A stretch of 36,354 nt of DNA, taken from a bacterium. GTDB lineage: Bacteria > Electryoneota > RPQS01 > DYHQ01. Positions 5,990 to 27,839 of this stretch are shown here, one piece after another. The notes under the pieces are model-generated. The model was not told where the DNA came from. It saw only the letters and a list, made by a program, of their open reading frames with translations, and searched no databases. The stretch is taken from NCBI GenBank assembly GCA_030622545.1, contig JAUXGA010000018.1:1-36354 (forward strand), in the 5' to 3' direction. Both the position numbers and the translations under genes were made by a program. The stretch's first letter is position 1. Every line of letters starts with the position of its first letter.

Positions 5990-6340
5990 TTACTCGGGTG
6001 ATGCTTCTCGCATTTTCATGGGTGCTTTGAAGACGAAGGTGGTGAAGAGTTCGATCAGGAAGCCCCATATAATTCCGAAGATAACTATGAAGAGAAAATC
6101 TTCATTCATAGCTATAGGTAGCGAACCCAGAAAGCCAATGATGATTCCGTGAAAGAACCAGCCAAGCTTCCAAATCGAGATGCCGATAATCAAACCAATT
6201 AGTGCTCGATCAAAGATAGCCGACCACATCATGGCGGTCGTCATTTCATCGCCCATTTTTGTCTTTCCGGCAACAGCGCATATCAATCCGCAGATGATGC
6301 CAAGGACAACGGCGATTCCCAAACGTTTTGCATAGACCAT
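5990..6340 (-). CDS. Four-helix membrane protein, unknown function
   Basis: The 116-residue protein starts MVYAKRLG and contains about four hydrophobic helices: LGIAVVLGIICGLICAVA, IFDRALIGLIIGISIW, WFFHGIIIGFLGSLPIAM and FLFIVIFGIIWGFLIELF. The tail is short and charged (KAPMKMREASPE). The frame is open upstream to 6355, but a GGAGG site lies directly in front of the ATG at 6340, so I place the start there. The family is not assigned. It is transcribed on the same strand as the rhamnose operon, 54 bases downstream of rfbB. Confidence 0.65.
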   Translation of the reverse strand: MVYAKRLGIAVVLGIICGLICAVAGKTKMGDEMTTAMMWSAIFDRALIGLIIGISIWKLGWFFHGIIIGFLGSLPIAMNEDFLFIVIFGIIWGFLIELFTTFVFKAPMKMREASPE

Positions 6341-6394
6341 AGTAGTTTCCTCCACTTGTTAATTGGCGATTTTGGTGAAGCTACAACGCCAGCG

Positions 6395-7396
6395 CTATCC
6401 GTACTGCTTTTTATACCATTCCTGATAAGCCGCCTGCTTTTCTTTCAGCGCGCGCCACCAAGATTCGTTTTTCACGTACCATTCAACGGTTTTTTTCATT
6501 CCCTCTTCAAAATCATGCAGGGGCTTCCATCCGAGGGCTTGGATTTTATCTATCGTCACGCTGTAACGGCGGTCATGACCCAACCGGTCTTTGACGGGAT
6601 GAATCAGACTTTCAGGTTTGCCCAAGAGCTTCAGGATGCTTTTCGTAACTGTGATGTTCATCTCTTCGTTGCCGGCTCCGATGTTGTAGATTTCTCCCGC
6701 CGTTCCTTTTTGCAGCACAAGGTCGAGAGCTTCCGCTTGATCCTCGACATAGAGCCAGTCGCGCACGTTCTTGCCGTCGCCGTAAATCGGCAGAGGTTTA
6801 TCGTCAATGGCGTTCGTGATAAACAGAGGAATCAGCTTTTCCGGATACTGGTACGGCCCGAAATTGTTCGACGAACGCGTAATCAGCACCGGCAATCCAT
6901 ACGTAATGAAATAACTGCGCGCCAAAAGTTCGCCGCCGGATTTCGACGCTGAATAAGGCGACGACGGATTCAGTATATCCTTTTCGGTGAATGAACCTTC
7001 ATCAATCGAACCGTAAACTTCGTCGGTGGAGATGTGCAGGAAGCGGGAGATGTTGTGCTCCCGTGCGGCTTCCAAAAGAACGAACGCTCCGTGCACATCC
7101 GTCTCCACGAAAGCGCCCGCTTCATGGATGGAACGGTCCACGTGAGTTTCCGCAGCGAAATTGACGACCGCATCCACATTGGACATCCAACGTTCGACTG
7201 TGTCCGGGTCGCAGATGTCGCCGTGCCAGAACGTGTAGCGCGGATTTCCGTCAAGGTCGCGCAGGTTTTCACGATTGCCGGCATAGGTCAGCGCGTCGAG
7301 GTTGACGATGTGCAAATCGGGATGCTTCTTCAGCATATAACGAATAAAGTTGGAGCCGATAAAACCGGCCCCACCGGTGACAAGCAGACGTTTCAT
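6395..7396 (-). CDS. rfbB: dTDP-glucose 4,6-dehydratase
   Basis: This is the second step of dTDP-L-rhamnose synthesis, converting dTDP-glucose to dTDP-4-keto-6-deoxyglucose. The 333-residue protein is an extended short-chain dehydrogenase. It has the NAD loop GGAGFIGSN at residues 8-16, the STDEVYGS active-site segment with the catalytic Asp-Glu pair after Thr, the YSASK motif (catalytic Tyr and Lys), and the family's RSSNNFGPYQYPEKLIPL segment. Length matches the family (330-360). Its ATG overlaps the stop of the gene at 7393 by 4 bases (ATGA), so translation is coupled in the operon. It is the last recognised gene of the rhamnose operon. Confidence 0.97.
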   Translation of the reverse strand: MKRLLVTGGAGFIGSNFIRYMLKKHPDLHIVNLDALTYAGNRENLRDLDGNPRYTFWHGDICDPDTVERWMSNVDAVVNFAAETHVDRSIHEAGAFVETDVHGAFVLLEAAREHNISRFLHISTDEVYGSIDEGSFTEKDILNPSSPYSASKSGGELLARSYFITYGLPVLITRSSNNFGPYQYPEKLIPLFITNAIDDKPLPIYGDGKNVRDWLYVEDQAEALDLVLQKGTAGEIYNIGAGNEEMNITVTKSILKLLGKPESLIHPVKDRLGHDRRYSVTIDKIQALGWKPLHDFEEGMKKTVEWYVKNESWWRALKEKQAAYQEWYKKQYG

Positions 7397-7992
7397 AGAA
7401 AATCCGTTCGTGTATTTTTGGTGATAGCGGACTTAACTTGTTCGGATTGAATCGCGTCAAGTTCCGGGAAGATGCGTTTCCATTTTGAGCCGGGGCGACG
7501 CCAGAGTAGCTGAGAGTTTTCGCCCGGACCGACGAGATAGATAGCGTCAAAAGGTTGTTCCAATTCCTGTGCGAGTGACTCCCGCAATTCTTCGGCGATT
7601 CCCGGCAGAAACGTATTGCCGCGAGTCAGACGCAGCGTTGCGGGATGAGCCAGCGTAATGAGCAGCGCTATCGGTTCCGCGATGGCGCGCGCACCGTAAC
7701 GCTCGATTTTGCGAGCGGTCGCTTCCAAGATACGCTGATGCAGCAGAAAAGGCTGCTCGTCATCGTTTGTCTTGTGAGAATTGACGTCGTCAGGGCGAAG
7801 CGGCGATGTGATTTCGAAGCAGATGGTCGCCTTCGCTCGCTTAGCGATAATATCCGGCCAATTCTCGCTAACCGGATGGTGCGCGCTCGCGTAGTATGCC
7901 GGGCCGAAACGGCGTGACACGGCTCCCATGAACCATTGCCACGTGCGTTCTTCAACGTCGGCGTTGGATAGTTTGCTTCGAGAAGGTTTCAT
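7393..7992 (-). CDS. Hypothetical protein with PD-(D/E)XK-nuclease-like core
   Basis: The protein has about 199 residues if it starts at the ATG at 7992, or 202 from the GTG at 8001. Neither start has a strong ribosome-binding site. The N-terminal half contains ENWPDIIAKRAKATICFEIT, a strand-loop-strand with an acidic residue followed by a Glu in a hydrophobic strand. That is reminiscent of PD-(D/E)XK nucleases, but the canonical lysine after the Glu is absent (FEIT). The centre is helical and basic (HQRILEATARKIERYGARA). The C-terminal part contains DAIYLVGPGENSQLLWRR. It sits inside the rhamnose operon between the epimerase and rfbB, overlapping rfbB by 4 bases. The function is unknown and the nuclease link is an inference. 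Confidence 0.6.
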   Translation of the reverse strand: MKPSRSKLSNADVEERTWQWFMGAVSRRFGPAYYASAHHPVSENWPDIIAKRAKATICFEITSPLRPDDVNSHKTNDDEQPFLLHQRILEATARKIERYGARAIAEPIALLITLAHPATLRLTRGNTFLPGIAEELRESLAQELEQPFDAIYLVGPGENSQLLWRRPGSKWKRIFPELDAIQSEQVKSAITKNTRTDFL

Positions 7993-8020
7993 TGCACTCA
8001 CTTATAGTGGTGTGCATGTT

Positions 8021-8476
8021 CTATTTGAAAACGATGTCCCAGTTATAGGGAATATTCGGGTCATCGTGAGGTGCGCGGTGCTCGTCGGGATTGTCATAGT
8101 CAAAAAGTTCATCCGGACAATTCACGACAATAGATTCTGTTTCGGAAATACATTTCCACCCATGATAAACTCCCGGCGGAATGACAATCAGTTTCGGATT
8201 ATGCTCGCCGATAAAAAACTCGTTAACCTCGCGGTGGGTTGGCGAGCCCTCGCGACCATCAAAAAGAACAAGCTTCACCATCCCCTTGACGCACGCGACC
8301 ATATCCGTCTGTTTCGTGTGATAGTGCCACGCTTTGACGACGCCCGGATAATTCGTCGTCATATAGACCTGCCCGAATTTTTTAAAAATCGGCCAGTCGC
8401 AGCGCATAATTTCCATCAACCTGCCCCGTTCATCGGGAATCAGGCGTAATGTATTTGCAGATACTCCATCAATCAC
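8021..8476 (-). CDS. rfbC: dTDP-4-dehydrorhamnose 3,5-epimerase-family protein (short cupin form)
   Basis: The 151-residue protein is a single cupin domain related to RmlC, which epimerises C3 and C5 of dTDP-4-keto-6-deoxyglucose. Visible family features are DERGRLMEI at the start, AWHYHTKQTDM (catalytic and binding histidines), KLVLFDGREGSPT, KLIVIPPGVYHGWKC and the C-terminal PDEHR. It is shorter than the usual 180-residue RmlC and has lost parts of the standard N- and C-terminal arms. It could therefore be the pathway's epimerase or a related sugar-nucleotide cupin. Placement between rfbD and rfbB with rfbA in the same operon, and no other epimerase in view, favours the RmlC role. Confidence 0.85.
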   Translation of the reverse strand: MIDGVSANTLRLIPDERGRLMEIMRCDWPIFKKFGQVYMTTNYPGVVKAWHYHTKQTDMVACVKGMVKLVLFDGREGSPTHREVNEFFIGEHNPKLIVIPPGVYHGWKCISETESIVVNCPDELFDYDNPDEHRAPHDDPNIPYNWDIVFK

Positions 8477-18598: not shown

Positions 18599-19744
18599 AT
18601 GACTCCATCAAAGAAGTTATCGACTCGAGCTTCATCGAGAGGCATCAAGGAGAGGCACATTCTGCTCGTTCGAGCGGCGCCTGATCTTGTTGCCCATGCC
18701 TCCTCTCTGAATCATCTTGAATGGAAGATTAAAGAAATCAAAGCGTTACCTGAGAAGGAACAGGCCTTCATGGCAGTGGTGGATGGCCAGAATATTGAGC
18801 TTAAAGAGTTTGAAAACAAGATATTGAACCATCTAACCGTCTACCTGAACCCCCGAAAAACATCCCCAAAGAGCTTGCCCTCAGATCCGCACTTCATCTA
18901 TTCGGAACGGGAGCAATTTCTTAAAACAGATTTTCAGTCTTTACTAAGTCTTTTCGGCGGCATCAATGAAAAGCTCATGCTTTTAGGGGGAATCGAAGAG
19001 AAATACCGTCTTCTGATGCGTCAAGCGCAACTTGGCAAAGCACTCCAGAGTATTGTCCACAACGTCAACAATCAGCTTGCGCCAGTTTTGGCTGTTTTGG
19101 AAACTCTGCAGAAAGAAAATGTGCATTTGCGAGACCTCGCCATGATTTACGAGCAGTGTCAGCGGATTCATTCTGATTTTGCGAATCTGCTTCGGGTTTC
19201 GCGGCGCGGCCTCGCTAAGGAAGTTTCTGGTTTTGATTTGAACGCGCTGATTCGTGAAGAATTGCGATTGATGATGGGAGCGGATCCGGTTCTGCAGTTG
19301 CGGGTGGTTTGCCATACGCAATTGGATACAGAGCTGCCGCCGCTCTATGGAATTTACAATGATTTCAGCCATAGTTTTATCAATTTGCTTCGGAATGCGG
19401 CCAGCGCGATGGCTCATACAGAGAATCCTGAACTGACGATACGAACAGGTCAAAATGCGAAGAACATCTGGCTTGAGGTGGAAGACCGGGGCATCGGAAT
19501 TCCCGAGCAATTCCTCAAAGATATTTTCAAGCCGTATGTCAGTTCGCGCGAACGTCGTGAGGGTCAAGAAGATTCCGGCCTTGGTTTGGGGCTTTCCTCA
19601 TCGAAGGAACTACTTGATAAATACAAAGTAAAATGGGAGGTTAAGAGCCGCGTGGGAGTCGGAACCCGATTTGTGCTGAAATTCCCGCGCGAAAAGATAT
19701 GCATCCCGCCGGAAGATACTCAACCGGGGGATAGACGAGAATGA
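18599..19744 (+). CDS. Soluble sensor histidine kinase
   Basis: The 381-residue protein has no membrane helix. Residues ~20-85 ([11 protein letters not shown]...[11 protein letters not shown]) may be a degenerate receiver-like domain without the acidic pocket. The phospho-acceptor H154 is in [17 protein letters not shown], the HNVNNQL form of the H-box. The ATPase domain shows the N-box ([14 protein letters not shown]), G1 ([10 protein letters not shown]), F-box-like IFKPYVSS and G2 ([13 protein letters not shown]). The gene overlaps prfA by 4 bases (ATGA), an unusual partner for a kinase. No response regulator is adjacent. porX at 14337 is the only receiver protein in the window, and a functional link is possible but unproven. 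Confidence 0.9.
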
Positions 19745-20808
19745 TAGAAAAGCTCAAAGAAATACAAGCGCATTATGCGGAGCTTGAGCAGCGGCTGGTC
19801 AACCCGCAAATTGCTTCCAATCCCGAGCTCTCCACACCGCTTCTGAAGGAACTCAAGGAGCTAACTCCGGTGGTGCAATCCGCACAGCGGCTGATGGATC
19901 TGAAAAAGCGCGCCGAAGAAGCAACCACTATGCTCAAAGAGCCGGATGAGGATATACAGGAACTTGCCCGACAGGAGCTCTTGGAAACACAGTCGCAGAT
20001 TGCTGAGGTAGAAGACGAGATTAAGGGATTGCTCCTGCCGCGAGACCCGGATGATGATCGAAATGCGATTCTCGAAATTCGCGCCGGGACCGGCGGTGAC
20101 GAAGCGGCTCTTTTTGCGGCGGATTTGCTGCGAATGTACACTCGTTTTATCGAGCGGCATAAATGGAAACAGGAATACCTGACGGTGAACCCCAGTGAAG
20201 CCGGCGGCTTCAAAGAGATTGCGCTGCTGGTGAGCGGTGACGGGGCTTTTGGAACGCTCAAATGGGAAAGCGGAGTGCATCGCGTTCAGCGAGTGCCTGC
20301 GACCGAAAGTCAGGGACGCATTCACACATCCGCGGCGACGGTCGCGGTATTGCCTGAAGCCAAAGATGTCGATGTGAACATCAACACAGATGACCTTCGC
20401 ATTGATGTGTATCGTTCGCAGGGCGCCGGCGGCCAGCATGTGAACACGACCGATTCGGCGGTGCGCATCACCCATCTGCCATCCGGGATTGTCGTCAGCT
20501 GTCAGGATGAACGCTCGCAATATAAAAATAAATCAAAGGCGATGAAGCTGCTGCGCGCCCGGCTTCTGGATCAGGCCAGGCAAGAGGAAGCGGCGAAAGT
20601 CGCCGCTGACCGCCGAGCTCAAGTCAAAACAGGGGATCGCAGCGAGAAGATTCGCACCTATAACTTTCCTCAAAATCGTGTCACGGATCACCGAATCAAC
20701 CTGACCCTCCACCGCTTAGAAAGCATTTTAGGGGGGAATTTGGGTGAACTGATTGAAAATTTAAAACTTCATGACCGCGCCGAGAAATTGAAAGTCGGCG
20801 CAAATTGA
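19741..20808 (+). CDS. prfA: Peptide chain release factor 1
   Basis: RF1 recognises UAA and UAG at the ribosomal A site and triggers peptide release. The 355-residue protein has the stop-codon-recognition region [18 protein letters not shown], with the PxT-type motif of RF1 (RF2 has SPF), and the catalytic GGQ at residues 230-232 in [18 protein letters not shown]. The start overlaps the kinase stop and the stop overlaps the possible TTG start of the next gene, so the three genes are probably co-transcribed. No frameshift site is present, as expected for RF1. The methyltransferase gene prmC, often the neighbour, is absent. Confidence 0.97.
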
Positions 20809-21800
20809 CCCTCCCTATGACCCACTCCTCGCCACTTGGCGTCGTCATCGTATCCTACAATACCTGCGAGTTCCTTCGCGGGAGCCTTTTAGCTTTAAAG
20901 CGTCTTTCGGATGAAGGCCCTTTTGATATTGTCGTTGTGGATAATGGTTCCTCCGACGGCAGTGTTCAGATGGTAGCCAATGATTTTCCTGAGGTGCGGC
21001 TGATTGCGTTGGAAGAGAATTTGGGCTTCGCTCAAGCCAACAACCGCGCGGTTGAAAAGTTATCCAACCCGGAAATCCTTTTCTTGAATCCGGATACCGT
21101 GCTCACGCGGGGAGCCATAGAAAAGCTGCGCAAGCTTCTGGACACTCATCCCGCCGCCGCTGTTGCCGGGGGACAGCTCGTCATCGAGAATGGCGATCCC
21201 CAGCCTTCCAGCTTCGCTTTTCCGACGCTCTGGCGCGAGTTCTGGAGCTATTTACCGGAGCTAAAAGGATTTTTTCACGTTCGCGCGCTCGCGTCTCGGC
21301 TCTCGCGAATATTGCCGAAACTCTGGCGTGGAAGCTATCGCTGGGATCCCGAAATACGGCAAGTGGATTCTGTTGCGGGAGCCTGCATGATTATTCGCGC
21401 GGATGCCTTTCGCAAGTTGGGCGGATTTCGCAAGGAATTCTTCCTGTATCACGAAGAATTGGAATTGTGTTACCGTCTGCGTCAGCAGGGTTGGGAGGTG
21501 TGGCTGGAACCTCGCGCCCGGGTTCTCCACTATGAAGGCCAAGCCAGCGGCACGCGCCGCTTTCGCCTCGCCCCGACGCACATTCTCAGGTATCGCCTTA
21601 AGGGGATGGATTATTTCTGGTCGGAGCATGGTTCGCGCTTTTCTTATACTGTCTGGGGTCTGATGGTGCGTTCTATTCTGCGTTTCAGAGCCATTCTGTG
21701 TTGGAGCTTGGGCTTACTGACAAGCCGGGACAAACGGAAACGACTGCGGCAGCGAAGCGCGGATCTCTGGCAAATCGCCGGGGAGTTGAAAAGCAAATAG
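20805..21800 (+). CDS. Family 2 glycosyltransferase (rhamnosyltransferase-like)
   Basis: The protein has 331 residues from the TTG at 20805. The ATG at 20817 is an equally plausible start. The GT-A fold is seen in [44 protein letters not shown] (the DxD-type metal site), [17 protein letters not shown] and [20 protein letters not shown], followed by [10 protein letters not shown]. This matches the dTDP-rhamnosyl/GT2 group of surface-glycan enzymes and fits the rhamnose operon upstream. Its last 137 bases up to 21794 are duplicated at 23671-23807. The present 3' end (stop at 21798-21800) therefore appears to have been supplied by, or exchanged with, the inserted DNA. Confidence 0.93.
21658..21794 (+). 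repeat. 137-bp direct repeat, copy 1 (current 3' end of the glycosyltransferase gene)
   Basis: Matches 23671-23807 with no gaps at a constant offset of 2013 bases, with 8 mismatches by my alignment (about 94% identity). Six of the eight are silent in the glycosyltransferase frame. Confidence 0.95.
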
Positions 21801-22400
21801 GGTAGTGGGCTAATTTGAAACAAAAAATTGTCTGGTTTATCAAACAAGTTTTCGCGTATCTTTGTGGATGGAACAACGGGAGATTGATCTGCGTAAATGG
21901 GTTTATTTGAATTGAATAGAGAGGCATTAAACGACACAATCAATAAGTGGAACTTATTTTGCACGAAATTCGGGTAGAGGGCTAATTAGACTAGAATTTC
22001 AGTCAATCTATCTTGAAAGGAACAAAATTATACTAGAGCGTATCCCAAAAATATCATAGGGGAGTTCGAGAGTTCTTCGCCGAGCCGGGTTAAGCTGTCT
22101 TACCGTTTTCATAGTACCGAGATCGTATTCCAGCGCAACCCGGCCGGAATTTGAACTATCATCATCGCTCGCTCATCATTTCGTAAATAGAGCATGAACA
22201 ATGGCTTATCAATGCCGCTGTTTTTGAGATATGTTCTAGTCTAGTTTCACTAACTGCTAGTCTTGGAGTAGTTTTTGTAGCTGTTTAACCTTGTTTTAAT
22301 TTTGCACCTGACAAAGATTTGACTTGACTTTGGCTACTTCCAACAGTATATTAGGTCTAGTAGAATAACTTTTCCTAAATAAAGGCAAGATAATCTGGAA
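21801..22400. other. AT-rich non-coding left part of the inserted segment
   Basis: No gene is recognisable in these 600 bases. A 19-base word GGGTAGtGGGCTAATTtGA at 21800-21818 recurs as GGGTAGaGGGCTAATTaGA at 21972-21990. An 8-bp inverted pair (GCCGGGTT 22084-22091, AACCCGGC 22137-22144) encloses 45 bases and may fold. The GC-richer patch around 22070-22150 differs from its surroundings. The protease promoter sits at the right end. I found no integrase or transposase. Confidence 0.5.
22324..22352 (+). promoter_or_regulatory. Predicted promoter of the protease gene
   Basis: TTGACT (22324-22329), 17 bases, TATATT (22347-22352), a near-consensus match. It gives a leader of about 42 bases to the ATG at 22401. 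Confidence 0.7.
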
Positions 22401-23312
22401 ATGAATACAAAATACTCAAATCCAATAATAACAAAAGTATTGGATGAACAAAACCAAGGAAGCGAAACTAGACATAAGCTTTTCCAAGAATTGGAAAAGC
22501 GACTCAAAAGACCAATTGTTACATTTTATACAAGTTTCACTCATCCTGTACTAATTGAAGATAGAGATGCTGATATACTGGAAGGAATATTGCAAAAGCT
22601 AGACTTATCCAATGGCTTAGTGTTGGTCGTGAGTTCACCGGGCGGATTAGGTCTCTCAGCAGAAAGAATAGCGAATATTTGTAGGAATTACAGTAAAACT
22701 AATGAATATTGGGCAGTGGTGCCTAGTAAGGCAAAATCTGCTGCCACTATTATTTGTATGGGAGCTAGTAAAATACTTATGGGTCCGACATCTGAGTTAG
22801 GACCGATTGACCCACAAATAGGTGTGGAGAAAAGAGAAAGGGGTTTACTAAATGTTCTATCAGTATATAATATCGTACAGAGCTATGATGACCTCTTTGC
22901 AAGAGCAGTAAGTGAAAAGGGTAATTTACAGCCATATATGCTTCAATTATCTAATTATGATGATAAAGAAATAGCAGAATTAAGAGCGGGTTTAGAATTA
23001 TCGAAAGATATTGCGGTAAAACTCCTTCGATCTGGAATGATGAAAGGTAAATCAGAAACACAAATCAAAGAGAAGATTAAGATATTTCTAATACCCGAAG
23101 AAGTGAAAACACATGGTAGACCCATATATAGAGCTCGCGCTAAACGTTGTGGATTGATTGTGGAGTCCAAACGCTTAAATGAAACATCATGGAAATTATT
23201 CTATGAGTTGCATGTTCGAACGAACAATTTCGTGTCAACACAAGGCGCAAAATGTATTGAAAGTAAAGACCATTCGTTCTATGTGCCACTACCAAAGGAG
23301 TACAAGAAATGA
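22401..23312 (+). CDS. SDH-family Clp-fold serine protease (serine dehydrogenase proteinase type)
   Basis: The 303-residue protein belongs to the ClpP/crotonase-fold serine protease superfamily (SDH_sah group). It has the oxyanion region SSPGG at 78-82, the presumed nucleophile S113 in AKSAATIICMGA and the following MGPTSELGPIDPQI typical of the group, plus an acidic, helical C-terminal half that ends basic. No signal peptide or membrane helix is seen, unlike SppA. The gene is strongly AT-rich with A-ending codons compared with prfA and EF-G2 on either side. Its own promoter and the terminator after the next gene make it a self-contained cassette. Such proteases are frequent in islands, and a stress or defence role is only inferred. 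Confidence 0.88.
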   Translation: MNTKYSNPIITKVLDEQNQGSETRHKLFQELEKRLKRPIVTFYTSFTHPVLIEDRDADILEGILQKLDLSNGLVLVVSSPGGLGLSAERIANICRNYSKTNEYWAVVPSKAKSAATIICMGASKILMGPTSELGPIDPQIGVEKRERGLLNVLSVYNIVQSYDDLFARAVSEKGNLQPYMLQLSNYDDKEIAELRAGLELSKDIAVKLLRSGMMKGKSETQIKEKIKIFLIPEEVKTHGRPIYRARAKRCGLIVESKRLNETSWKLFYELHVRTNNFVSTQGAKCIESKDHSFYVPLPKEYKK

Positions 23313-23494
23313 AAGAGAAGAGAACAACTAAATTAAACAGAGAATATAAAGACGAATATCAAAAGCGATTAAATGCAACTAGGAAGAGCTTCTCAGAAAT
23401 GCTAGAAGAGATTAGACCGTTCATGAGACGACACAAATCTAAGGTTATATCAGTACCAAATGAATGGAAGCAAACGTCTCCATGTGATTCCTAG
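23309..23494 (+). CDS. Small basic helical protein, partner of the protease gene
   Basis: The 61-residue protein starts with an ATG that overlaps the protease stop by 4 bases (ATGA), so translation is coupled. It is very basic and helical (KEKRTTKLNREYKDEYQKRL, RRHKSKVISV) with no recognised domain. It might be a substrate adaptor, a toxin-like peptide or simply a small accessory protein. The coupled start and a GGAG just upstream (23296-23299) support it being expressed. Confidence 0.6.
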   Translation: MKEKRTTKLNREYKDEYQKRLNATRKSFSEMLEEIRPFMRRHKSKVISVPNEWKQTSPCDS

Positions 23495-23522
23495 AGCAGA
23501 TTATCTATTCTCTGATAAGAAT

Positions 23523-23556
23523 AAAGAACCTCGAATAATCGGGGTTCTTTATTTTT
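23523..23556 (+). terminator. Intrinsic terminator of the protease cassette
   Basis: A 12-bp stem AAAGAACCTCGA / TCGGGGTTCTTT (one T-G wobble) with loop ATAA is followed by ATTTTT. Confidence 0.9.
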
Positions 23557-23670
23557 GAAATGGATTGATAGCTATCTTATACTTCATACACCTGTTCCAA
23601 TCCAAGTAAATCATCTAAATTCCATAGTCTCCGTGTAACACCTGCCTCCACTGCAGGCGTACATCTTAGC

Positions 23671-23831
23671 GTCTGATGGTGCGTTCTATTCTGCGTTTCA
23701 GAGCAATCCTGTGTTGGAGCTTGGGCTTGCTGACAAGCCGGGACAAACGGAAACGACTGCGGCAGAGAAGCGCGGAGCTCTGGAAAATCGCCGGAGAGCT
23801 GAAAAGCGAAGAGCGCAGGCTTGACTCTTAG
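23671..23831 (+). pseudogene. Displaced 3' end of the glycosyltransferase gene (direct repeat copy 2)
   Basis: Bases 23671-23807 repeat 21658-21794. The frame is intact and encodes [20 protein letters not shown], then a basic segment and GELKSEERRLDS, ending in TAG at 23829-23831. It has no 5' part or start codon. It continues a few residues beyond the current gene's end (SEERRLDS against SK), so this is probably the original 3' end, now cut off by the inserted DNA. Its last codons contain the -35 box of the next promoter. Confidence 0.9.
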
Positions 23832-23849
23832 AGACAATCTCTGTATATT
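23821..23849 (+). promoter_or_regulatory. Predicted EF-G2 promoter
   Basis: TTGACT (23821-23826), 17 bases, TATATT (23844-23849). The -35 overlaps the last codons of the displaced glycosyltransferase end. The leader of about 80 bases contains the hairpin at 23869-23898. Confidence 0.7.
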
Positions 23850-23935: not shown

Positions 23936-26023
23936 GTGACAGCTCATGCTATTGATCACTTTCGTAATATTGGGATTTTTGGCCATGGCGACGCCGGAAA
24001 AACGACCCTTGCCGAAGCGCTGCTCTTCTCGATGGGAGAAGGGACACGTTTGGGGTCAATTGATGACGGCACCACGCATTCTGATTATACCAAAGCCGAA
24101 ATCGAACGTAAGATATCCATTCAAGCCAGCGTCCTGAGAGGTGATTGGAAAGACCATACCATCACGCTTTTTGATACGCCCGGTTTCTTTGATTTCGTGG
24201 GTGAAGTCGTCAGCAGCCTGCGCGTTGTGGATTTAGCTCTGTTTTCTATCAACGGTTCTTCTGGAGCGGATGTGGGAACGGACCGCATCTGGGATATGGC
24301 GGGCAATCTCGACTTACCGCGCATGTTCTTCGTTTCGAAGCTGAACCGGGATCATATCAACTGGGATAATATCATCGAAGGAATTCAGGAGCGTTTCACC
24401 GACCGTGCCTGTCTGGTACAATTCCCCCTCGAAACCGGTGAAGGTTTTACGTCGGTTGCGGATGTTCTATTGATGAAGAAACTGAAGTTTGCAATGGATG
24501 GCTCTGGGAAGTTCGAAATGTCCGAGCTTGATGGGGATACGAAAAGTCGCGCGGAAGATTTGCGTAATAAGCTGGTGGAACTCGTCGCGGAAGCCGATGA
24601 CGAACTCATGGAAGCTTTCTTCGATAAGGGAGACCTGACGCCGGAACAGTTCGAAAAGGGTTTGAAGCTCGGTTTAAATACCGGCAAAGTTTTTCCGATT
24701 CTTTGCGGCGCTGGTGACAGCAATATAGGGATTCGCAGGCTCCTCGATTTTTTGGTTCAATACGCGCCCTCGCCGCTCAACCGTCCCGCAGTTGTTGGAA
24801 CATCTCCCAATGATGGAAAAGAGTTGACACGCGCCCCATCCGAGAGTGATCCTGCGGCGGCGCTTGTTTTCAAAACAATTTCGGAAGCTCATTTAGGTGA
24901 GCTGTCCTTTTTCCGTATTTTCTCCGGAACGGTCACTCCCGGAATGGAACTAAAAAATCCCAACACGAACAGCAGTGAAAAGATTGGCCAGATTTTCTGG
25001 ATGAGCGGCAAGAAGCGAACGCAAGCCGACAAACTTGTCGCGGGCGAAATCGGTGCGACGGTTAAGCTGAAGAATACGCGCACCGGCGATACACTCTGCG
25101 ACCCGCGCAATCCCTTTCAGTTTCCGGCGATTGAATTTCCGGCTCCGGTTCTGGAGACGGGAATTGTCCCGAAGGCCAAGGGCGATGAGGAAAAGATTTC
25201 GGGAGGAATGCACGCTCTGAAGGCGGAAGATCCGAGTTTTACGCTGACCATGGACGCTGAACTTTCTCAAATCGTTCTCGCCGGGCAGGGTGATTTGCAC
25301 CTGACGATTTTAGTGGACAAACTGAAAGAAAAATCGGGCGTGGAAGTCGATTTCGTAGAACCCAAGATTCCCTACAGGGAAACCATCCGCGGCTCGGCTG
25401 AAGCTGAAGGAAAGCATAAAAAACAGAGCGGCGGCCGGGGGCAGTTCGGCGTGACGTTTGTGAAATTGGAACCGCAGCCTCGCGGGGAAGGTTACGAATT
25501 CGTCAATCAAATCACGGGTGGTGCCATTCCTACGAAGTTTATCCCCGCCGTGGATAAGGGAATCAAGGAAACGCTGCTGCGAGGCGTTATTGCCGGTTAT
25601 CCTGTGGTGGATGTTAAAGTAAGTCTCTATGACGGGAAGTTTCACGATGTGGACTCGTCGGAACTCGCGTTTAAAATCGCGGGATCTCTGGCATTCCGTA
25701 GCGCCTTCAAAAAATGCAAGCCGATTATGCTGGAACCGATTTATGACCTTGAAGTCCGCGTGCCGGAAGAATTCATGGGCGACATCATGGGAGACCTTTC
25801 GAGTCGCCGGGGCAAGATTCAGGGGATGGACGCCGAGGGACGCATGCAGGTGATTCGAGCGAAGATTCCTTTGAAGGAACTCTATCGCTATTCGACGGCC
25901 TTGCGGTCGATGACGCAGGGGCGCGGCATCCATACACAGAGCTTTTCTCACTATGAGGAAGTGCCGCCGGATATTCAGCAGAAGCTCGTGGCGGCTCACA
26001 CCGAAGAGAAGGAAGAGGATTAG
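23936..26023 (+). CDS. fusA2: EF-G2-like translational GTPase
   Basis: The 695-residue protein has the EF-G domain order. The start is GTG at 23936, with GGAGG at 23924-23928. The in-frame upstream residues from 23885 are probably untranslated. The GTPase loop is GHGDAGKTT (residues 16-24), where canonical EF-G has AHIDAGKT. G3 is DTPGFFDF. The G4 region reads SKLNRDH rather than NKMD. GHG, RLGSIDDGTT and SDYTKAE are typical of the EF-G2/EF-G-like subfamily, not the housekeeping factor. Domain IV (SGGRGQFGVTFVKLEP) and domain V (MGDIMGDLSSRRGKIQGMD) are present. The precise role of this subfamily is uncertain. It is followed by, and overlaps by one base, the HIT gene. Confidence 0.93.
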   Translation: MTAHAIDHFRNIGIFGHGDAGKTTLAEALLFSMGEGTRLGSIDDGTTHSDYTKAEIERKISIQASVLRGDWKDHTITLFDTPGFFDFVGEVVSSLRVVDLALFSINGSSGADVGTDRIWDMAGNLDLPRMFFVSKLNRDHINWDNIIEGIQERFTDRACLVQFPLETGEGFTSVADVLLMKKLKFAMDGSGKFEMSELDGDTKSRAEDLRNKLVELVAEADDELMEAFFDKGDLTPEQFEKGLKLGLNTGKVFPILCGAGDSNIGIRRLLDFLVQYAPSPLNRPAVVGTSPNDGKELTRAPSESDPAAALVFKTISEAHLGELSFFRIFSGTVTPGMELKNPNTNSSEKIGQIFWMSGKKRTQADKLVAGEIGATVKLKNTRTGDTLCDPRNPFQFPAIEFPAPVLETGIVPKAKGDEEKISGGMHALKAEDPSFTLTMDAELSQIVLAGQGDLHLTILVDKLKEKSGVEVDFVEPKIPYRETIRGSAEAEGKHKKQSGGRGQFGVTFVKLEPQPRGEGYEFVNQITGGAIPTKFIPAVDKGIKETLLRGVIAGYPVVDVKVSLYDGKFHDVDSSELAFKIAGSLAFRSAFKKCKPIMLEPIYDLEVRVPEEFMGDIMGDLSSRRGKIQGMDAEGRMQVIRAKIPLKELYRYSTALRSMTQGRGIHTQSFSHYEEVPPDIQQKLVAAHTEEKEED

Positions 26024-26544: not shown

Positions 26545-27063
26545 ATGAAATGCGGCAAGGGCGAACTCGAAATTCTTCAGGGGGACATCACCGACCAGAC
26601 AACCGATGCGATTGTCAATGCGGCGAACAACCGTTTAGTATTGGGCGCGGGTGTCGCCGGAGCAATTGCTCGCAAAGGTGGGCCGACGATTCAGGAAGAA
26701 TGCAACCGGCATGGGCCTATCAACGTCGGTGAGGCTGCCATCACCAAAGCGGGAAATCTGCCGTGCAAGTGGGTGATTCATGCGGCGGGGATGGCGCCCG
26801 GCGGTCCGGTTACTACGAACGCTCTTGAAAACTGCACACGCGCCAGCCTCGACATCTGCCGCAAACATAACATTTCTTCCATTTCCTTTCCAGCGATTGG
26901 CGCGGGCATCGGCGGGCTTGATATTAATGTATGCGCCGAGACGATGCTGAAAATTGCCAAGCAGCATCTCGAACAATTCAACATCCCTCAAAAAGTTATC
27001 TTTGTCCTCTATGATAAACCCTCCTGTGAAATCTTCCGAAATATCTGGGAAACAGTTCAGTGA
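26545..27063 (+). CDS. Macrodomain (ADP-ribose-binding) protein
   Basis: The 172-residue protein is a single macrodomain of the O-acetyl-ADP-ribose deacetylase type. It has LEILQGDITDQTTDAIVNAANN, with the D and N that contact adenine and the distal ribose, the GAGVAGAIARKGG loop, and FPAIGAGIGG binding the diphosphate. It probably hydrolyses ADP-ribose adducts. It follows the HIT gene by 27 bases in the same direction. No ribosome-binding site is obvious before the ATG at 26545. Confidence 0.93.
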   Translation: MKCGKGELEILQGDITDQTTDAIVNAANNRLVLGAGVAGAIARKGGPTIQEECNRHGPINVGEAAITKAGNLPCKWVIHAAGMAPGGPVTTNALENCTRASLDICRKHNISSISFPAIGAGIGGLDINVCAETMLKIAKQHLEQFNIPQKVIFVLYDKPSCEIFRNIWETVQ

Positions 27064-27132
27064 AATTGCGTTTTGTATTATACCTTCATCCCTTCAAATC
27101 AATTAATAGTTATCTAAGTGAAGAATGTAGTT

Positions 27133-27768
27133 ATGGATTGGACGACAGTTCTTAGTAATTTAAGTATCAGTGGAGTAGTAGTACTCGGATCAGTCTTCTT
27201 GATTAAACGCTTCTTTGAACATTCTTTTAGTGCTGCTTTGGAGAAGTACAAATCACAACTAAATATAGACCTTGAAAAGCACAAGGCTGATCTGCAACGG
27301 GCAGCGATACAATACCAGATTACATATTCAAAGTTGCACACCGATAGAGCTGCCGTTATCGTAGAGTTAAATACAAAAATGGTAAAGATGTACTGGTCCC
27401 TAGAGTCTTTTACACTTCATCAATCTGGTGATGTATCTGTTGAGAAAAAAGCTGAAACAGCATATACGGACATCAAAGATTTTGAATTCTATTATAAATG
27501 CAATATGATTTATTTTGGTAAGAATATCTGTGCTTTGATTGATTCAATGTTGCCCAAAGCATATAAAGCACAGACTGCTGCCAAAATATCATGGGAATCT
27601 AATGTGGACAGAAGTAATTTGGATATTCGAAAAGAGAAAGCCCAAGCATGGAAAGAATCGTGGAAGATTATAGAAAAAGAACTTCCCAAAATTCAGGAGA
27701 ACTTGCAGGAAGAATTTAGGGAGCTTTTAGATGTGGGGGGGCCGATTTCATCTGAAGGCAAGAACTAG
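27133..27768 (+). CDS. Membrane-anchored coiled-coil hypothetical protein
   Basis: The protein has about 211 residues from the ATG at 27133. A GTG at 27118 is an alternative, and neither has a clear ribosome-binding site. An N-terminal helix (LSISGVVVLGSVFLIKRFF) anchors it, followed by a long charged helix (AALEKYKSQLNIDLEKHKAD) predicted to be coiled coil, then a mixed helical domain (residues ~70-200). The layout of one anchor plus coiled coil plus helical body is seen in many accessory proteins, for example phage-resistance effectors, but I recognise no family. Codon use is AT-rich compared with the macrodomain and sdh genes, suggesting acquisition. Confidence 0.7.
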   Translation: MDWTTVLSNLSISGVVVLGSVFLIKRFFEHSFSAALEKYKSQLNIDLEKHKADLQRAAIQYQITYSKLHTDRAAVIVELNTKMVKMYWSLESFTLHQSGDVSVEKKAETAYTDIKDFEFYYKCNMIYFGKNICALIDSMLPKAYKAQTAAKISWESNVDRSNLDIRKEKAQAWKESWKIIEKELPKIQENLQEEFRELLDVGGPISSEGKN

Positions 27769-27839
27769 TGCCATTTGATAAAAATATGGTGTGTGTTTGA
27801 CGAATTACGGTGATAACGGTTTAGAAGAACATTTTCATC

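Follow-up and report, generated by a model that had tools for sequence, protein, structure and literature searches.

The window analysed here is an entire bacterial contig of 36,354 nucleotides (JAUXGA010000018.1 of GenBank assembly GCA_030622545.1; contig C8 of genome G000). Within it, an insert separates a family 2 glycosyltransferase gene (GT) from the gene of an elongation factor G (EF-G2), and the last part of GT stands on both sides of this insert. The genome comprises 2,662,432 bases in 20 contigs, with a completeness of 96.26% and a contamination of 0.27%, and belongs to the Electryoneota, the phylum equated with AABM5-125-24 in an excerpt of published work (PMC10439189).

The duplicated gene end and its locus

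The locus is defined by the following features.

19741 to 20808, forward strand: peptide chain release factor gene with PCRF and RF-1 domains (Pfam PF03462 and PF00472), the upstream neighbour
20817 to 21800, forward strand: GT, with an ATG start (Pfam PF00535, E 4.7e-21)
21658 to 21794, forward strand: left copy of the repeat, the GT 3′ end in use (direct comparison)
23671 to 23807, forward strand: right copy of the repeat, the displaced native GT 3′ end (direct comparison)
23808 to 23831, forward strand: native last GT codons EERRLDS and stop TAG (compare the ...GLDS-stop of relative G001)
23821 to 23849, forward strand: EF-G2 promoter pattern TTGACT-N17-TATATT, overlapping the native GT stop (pattern match; a like pattern occurs in G001)
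23936 to 26023, forward strand: EF-G2, with a GTG start, the downstream neighbour (Pfam PF03764, PF00009 and PF00679; synteny)

The stretch 21658–21794 is repeated directly at 23671–23807, over 137 bases without a gap and with eight mismatches, the longest identical runs measuring 36 and 34 nt; the repeat is not due to chance. The left copy stops at 21794, where the insert starts, and the insert stops at 23670, where the right copy starts. The intervening 1,876 bp (21795–23670) are foreign in composition, with a GC content of 36.9% compared with 50.3% across the remainder of the contig. Eight codons differ between the copies (GCC/GCA, ATT/ATC, TTA/TTG, CGA/AGA, GAT/GAG, CAA/AAA, GGG/GGA and TTG/CTG, left before right); six of the changes are silent and the other two, D/E and Q/K, are conservative, leaving the copies approximately 94% identical. 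The right copy contains neither an indel nor a stop within the repeat, and its frame stays open to its own TAG at 23829–23831. GT in use thereby ends in LKSK-TAG, and the native end reads LKSEERRLDS-TAG. The repeat, the eight codon differences and the in-frame stop at the EF-G2 promoter had been set out in a preliminary description of this DNA, and re-comparison reproduces all three exactly. Searched with 21640–21820, the same genome yielded the query, the right copy and, beyond these two, a single match of 21 bp at position 170496 of contig C13.

Relatives of GT were searched for in 61 genomes including the window's own, with a match in 59, and the best GT locus was examined in nine genomes: the sole genome of the same family (G001) and eight of the 11 sister-family genomes (G002–G008 and G011). 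In all eight of the latter, GT lies directly before EF-G2, with 99–143 bp from the GT stop to the EF-G start, and three of them have the same promoter pattern before EF-G. The release factor gene adjoins GT in G001 too. The G001 protein, which at 60% identity to the window's GT is a distant outgroup, ends in KKQGLDS-TAG, with the promoter pattern TTGACTCTTAGCGGGGATATGAGTATATT spanning the stop; the right copy in the window ends in EERRLDS-TAG, with TTGACTCTTAGAGACAATCTCTGTATATT spanning the stop. Because the ...LDS-stop and the promoter pattern are shared with G001, the displaced copy is identified from its sequence context as the native GT 3′ end. This agrees with the preliminary description, which had also suggested looking for an uninterrupted locus in relatives, such as the eight sister-family genomes display; both copies with the spacer between them, the arrangement that it held would speak against insertion, were seen in none of the nine loci.

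The corresponding gap in G001 measures 2,131 bp and holds a Type II restriction-modification pair (6095–8106 of locus L043, contig C18), comprising a methyltransferase (best PADLOC E 8.2e-65) and a restriction enzyme (E 1.8e-58). This pair lies between the EF-G2 promoter pattern and EF-G2, downstream of the pattern and not within the GT end, and therefore probably shares the EF-G2 promoter. Both examined members of the window's family thus have an insert here, with different cargo and at different exact positions, as opposed to none of the eight sister-family genomes. Because the G001 gap holds a different cargo, insertion between GT and EF-G2 has recurred within one family, with two cargoes in two genomes.

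Origin of the duplication

A GT end linked to the cassette may well have been imported from a close relative and integrated through that homology, a reading that we hold with moderate confidence. The left copy would have travelled with the cassette, in keeping with the 94% identity of the copies, and RecA-type pairing of the incoming GT end with the resident GT would have anchored the integration, either through one crossover with a circular molecule or by homology-facilitated illegitimate recombination. The repeated stretch is the GT end, and the −35 region of EF-G2 lies just past it. A plain insertion there would truncate GT or separate EF-G2 from its promoter; with two copies, GT would retain a complete reading frame and EF-G2 its promoter. 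Because the promoter overlaps the last codons of GT, duplication would spare both neighbours, which may be why the duplicated form survived.

The differences between the copies carry much of this reading. At least six silent changes among eight would be improbable had neither copy been selected (P 0.004–0.013), and six of eight would be unsurprising had both been selected in separate genomes (P 0.25–0.95, depending on selection strength). With G001 as an outgroup (codons read by eye), the right copy is the one matched at GCA, AGA and the Glu codon; four other differences are uninformative. The codon polarity, three against one in a small sample with a distant outgroup, favours a derived, putatively imported left copy.

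It seems rather unlikely that the duplication arose in place. In that model, 137 bp would have been copied from the resident GT end as the cassette entered, through either staggered breakage or replication repair, and the copies would then have drifted, with only the left one selected. The layout matches a target duplication exactly, and duplications of approximately 100 bp are published for restriction-modification systems (PMC3874152, in the excerpt available). However, a freed right copy would be expected to take 67–76% of the changes, mostly amino-acid changing ones, so that six silent changes of eight have P 0.036–0.068; moreover, three of the four polarisable codons changed on the left, and the right copy is intact within the repeat. 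The earlier proposal that both ends evolved under selection in different genomes is consequently weaker than first stated: the pattern is unlikely for unselected copies, but only marginally unlikely for duplication in place.

Less probable still is a site-specific island whose attachment site bore a homologous GT end and whose integrase either worked in trans or was encoded by a gene that has since disappeared. The prophage e14 in icd follows the same logic, with a separated end of 163 bp and an Asp/Glu replacement (PMC6379469, in the part of the text drawn on here). In the window, neither of the two plausible insert genes (22401–23312 and 23309–23494) encodes a recombinase, and no remnant was recognised by Pfam matches up to E 1 in four further open reading frames (ORFs; at least 60 residues) overlapping the insert and in six of nine non-coding open fragments (all but those of 63, 48 and 40 residues). 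Over this range, the preliminary statement that no integrase is visible is confirmed. The G001 insert also sits outside the GT end, and none of eight other loci with the insert's left-end box (see below) has a duplicated gene end, only those on G018:C71 and G029:C230 being fair tests. A tRNA-type attachment site was considered separately and set aside, the window being free of tRNA genes. An assembly chimera of two strains, with and without the cassette, is very improbable: the genome is a draft of 20 contigs and the copies differ as two strains would, but the 40 nt preceding each copy are dissimilar, so no shared stretch is seen that could mislead an assembler at the right junction, and both the repeat nested in the insert and its left-end box recur elsewhere in the genome.

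Several results weigh against the import of a cassette-linked GT end. At the TTG/CTG codon, the TTA of G001 agrees with the left TTG; the statistics disfavour duplication in place only marginally; and no long repeats flank the G001 insert, the only direct repeat in that region being 18 nt at 83%. Homology-facilitated illegitimate recombination leaves one illegitimate joint, often with a deletion, duplication being the less usual outcome. That the whole insert came from a phage or plasmid was rejected, with no DNA match at distant-blastn sensitivity and neither a donor nor a close relative found, and no relative of the protease encoded in the insert or of GT was confirmed in viral contigs by a search that reaches close relatives only. 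Displaced gene ends were found at none of eight other box loci (seven regions and C13); four of the eight contigs end 112–612 bp past the box, G018:C349 and C13 have an opposite-strand gene before it, and only G018:C71 and G029:C230 have a same-strand gene end before the box and several kilobases after it. Duplication is therefore not a rule of the box.

The insert, its cargo and its left-end box

The following features lie within the insert.

21801 to 21820, forward strand: left-end box GGTAGTGGGCTAATTTGAAA, with stops in three frames (exact copy at C13:170497)
21973 to 21992, forward strand: second, degenerate left-end box in the same orientation (pattern comparison)
22033 to 22243, strand not assigned: dispersed non-coding repeat with inverted ends CTAGARCRTATCYCAAAAA, resembling a miniature inverted-repeat transposable element and nested in the insert (copies or fragments elsewhere in the genome)
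22324 to 22352, forward strand: sigma-70-like cargo promoter pattern TTGACT-N17-TATATT (pattern match only)
22401 to 23312, forward strand: cargo gene 1, an SDH-type Clp-fold serine protease of 303 residues (PF01972, E 3.3e-11, above cut-off)
23309 to 23494, forward strand: cargo gene 2, a 61-residue protein of no known family, whose start overlaps the gene 1 stop by 4 nt
23516 to 23557, forward strand: intrinsic terminator-like hairpin after the cargo (inverted repeat; −22.7 kcal/mol, z −6.26)

The nested repeat (211 bp) has a near-full copy at C20:66782–66992 (85%), and parts of it are matched on C2, C9 and C16; because it recurs on other contigs, the insert belongs to this genome. As a candidate for the mobilising element, the repeat was rejected, since it is internal to the insert and only 211 bp long.

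The protease matches phrog_11747 over residues 21–290 of 303 (E 4.3e-38) and the equivalog model NF047768 with E 7.2e-15, yet below the cut-off of that model. In an alignment of the window protein with 15 relatives picked from 30 loci (L102–L131), Ser, Asp and His columns, which we take to be the catalytic residues, are conserved in all 16 SDH-type proteins. Relatives of the protease occur in seven phage and 29 plasmid records, all below 60% identity. The 61-residue protein has no significant family match in PADLOC, PHROG or profile searches, its weak Pfam matches all lying below cut-offs; it was rejected as a conserved partner, since the small ORFs downstream of several related proteases are not alike in sequence. 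The same genome has another SDH-type protease gene (C7:35318–36151, L114), with a 59-residue ORF after it at −4. As judged from the sequence, the most likely products of the cargo are an active Clp-fold protease and a small, translationally coupled partner. The window cargo has no match among the defence systems of PADLOC, and any cellular role of the putative pair (in stress, in the response to phage or in regulated proteolysis) is guesswork.

The left end of the insert is a 20-bp box, GGTAGTGGGCTAATTTGAAW, of which ten copies occur in three genomes assigned by kinship to the same phylum: three in G000 (21801–21820 and 21973–21992 of the window, and C13:170497), four in G018 (C188, C16, C71 and C349) and three in G029 (C83, C241 and C230). 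When the ten copies are aligned, conservation rises abruptly with the first G and declines past position 20, and eight of the ten have stops in three frames. Among 39 genomes of the phylum, a 19-base pattern with at most two mismatches gave 12 matches in six genomes and none for a reversed control. A 20-base version with at most three mismatches gave 14 matches in seven genomes against ten in ten for the control. Single matches at this threshold mean nothing, because the control gives ten, and the clusters in G000, G018 and G029 stand out, because no genome exceeds one control match.

Among 386 genomes, 15 box matches with at most two mismatches were found (control, three), eight of them in G000, G018 and G029 and seven in four of the 347 genomes outside the phylum. 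Six loci of the latter were inspected, and only that in G283 resembles a cassette edge, in that a gene (DUF3800 by inspection) is preceded at 68 bp by a box-like sequence and GC falls from 0.47 to 0.32; a box-like pair in G107 is part of a longer repeat of 320 bp. In G261 (C23; L159, 1413–1520), two box-like sequences, separated by approximately 90 bp, are inverted with respect to each other in the manner of terminal inverted repeats. An IS21-family origin of the box, an idea prompted by the ends of IS21 and by this inverted pair, was dropped because IstB matches come without a frame of IS21-ATPase size and no box was found at the IstB loci checked. In G000, G018 and G029, the IstB profile matched only frames of 468–880 residues (two above cut-off) and one frame of 330 residues below cut-off, and the loci checked for a box were three from G261 and G380. 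A wide distribution of the box in bacteria was likewise rejected, since its exact 18-mer gave eight loci, three of them those of G018 and G029, against approximately 7.5 that we estimate for chance. The exact 17-mer occurs at four loci in viral contigs. A text search of the literature for the 17-mer string, the only literature search made for the box, found nothing.

At the five loci computed, GC after the box is 0.37–0.42, and it is 0.50–0.58 around four of these. The junction 21-mer is exact at C13:170496, next to a repressor gene resembling hrcA (by inspection). In G018, the TAG within the box is the stop of the abutting same-strand gene at all three loci that have one. Two G029 loci are 99% identical over 130 bp starting with the box and unlike each other ahead of it; the contigs of both stop at this point, which would be expected if the element were multi-copy. 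In the window and at three of five other loci scanned, box and cargo have a sigma-70-like promoter pattern between them. No 9-mer is common to three or more of six right intervals, and a shared right end of the cassettes was thus not detected.

The cargo varies between the box loci. At G018:C71, a HicA-type protein is accompanied by a partner in the HicB position, for which no HicB match exceeds the cut-off, and the gene pair at G029:C230 is 66% similar to it in DNA. At G018:C349, a DUF5678-like protein (just below cut-off) accompanies a retroviral-type aspartyl protease (RVP, above cut-off), and at G018:C16 there is a small protein that is DUF5678-like by inspection only, with no Pfam match above cut-off. 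The C13 cargo is a 121-residue protein of unknown family. It lies in a cassette-like stretch (L004, 7498–8868) between genes resembling hrcA and ftsX (names by inspection). The same stretch holds tRNA-Leu(taa) and a small ORF whose GIY-YIG matches are weak and fall short of the cut-off.

We tentatively entertain, as a doubtful but specific reading, that the insert belongs to a family of transposase-less cassettes in this phylum, a one-ended mobility system moved in trans. Such cassettes would share the sharply bounded left end, usually with three-frame stops and often where the 3′ end of a host gene lies, and would have no matching right end. Several would be two-gene and toxin-antitoxin-like (a HicA-type pair, a DUF5678-like protein with a retropepsin-like protease, and an SDH protease with a small protein), and the window copy would add a long target duplication. 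If the left end is a true terminus, it would offer a handle on the movement of transposase-less, toxin-antitoxin-like cassettes, which in our judgement is poorly understood.

Elsewhere in the window, a second AT-rich stretch lies at 27000–27800 (GC approximately 0.36–0.37). It contains an ORF of 216 residues (27118–27768) with no Pfam, PADLOC or PHROG match, just downstream of a macro-domain gene (26545–27063).

Comparison with known systems

In a candidate phylum that has been little studied, the locus clearly exemplifies the arrival of a small gene pair without a recognisable recombinase. Both neighbours are spared by duplication of the stretch where a gene end and the next promoter overlap, and within one family the GT/EF-G2 gap is marked as a landing place used more than once.

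Insertion with long target duplication was reportedly described for restriction-modification genes by Nobusato et al. in 2000 and Furuta et al. in 2010. As far as the excerpts of four papers go, small restriction-modification gene sets insert with target duplications of approximately 100 bp, Helicobacter pylori being among the hosts (PMC3874152, PMC1643837, PMC3031569 and PMC4978471). The window resembles these cases in that the insert is missing from collinear relatives (all eight examined, of 11), the target is duplicated directly over 137 bp, and neither a transposase or integrase in the insert nor a linked mobile element is apparent. It differs in its cargo, a protease pair rather than a restriction-modification system (the latter being usual but not strictly defining), in that its copies diverge by 6%, mostly silently, and in a left-end box common to other loci. 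A restriction-modification pair does sit in the same gap of G001, there without a long flanking repeat.

The prophage e14 carries its own recombinase. No recombinase was recognised in the window insert, and the replacement end there is shorter than the native one (LKSK compared with LKSEERRLDS); by contrast, the protein-gene 3′ target, the supply of a replacement end, the similar duplicated length and the conservative Asp/Glu change are all shared with e14 in icd of Escherichia coli (163 bp duplicated; PMC6379469, same excerpt). A protein-coding target, which the preliminary description had regarded as setting this island apart, therefore has a published precedent.

For type VI effector modules of Vibrio, homology-facilitated illegitimate recombination has been proposed, with the old 3′ part displaced downstream (PMC5361080 and also PMC2884548, both in excerpt). 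There, as proposed here, incoming DNA is anchored by one homologous stretch and the old 3′ part is displaced. In Vibrio, displaced effector ends and immunity genes form arrays, whereas the window has a single displaced gene end that still bears its neighbour's promoter. Because target duplications, e14 in icd and the type VI modules are all published, at least in the excerpts cited, the style of insertion is not new: protein-gene targets and target duplications of approximately 100 bp are already known, and the shared left end is the less familiar element.

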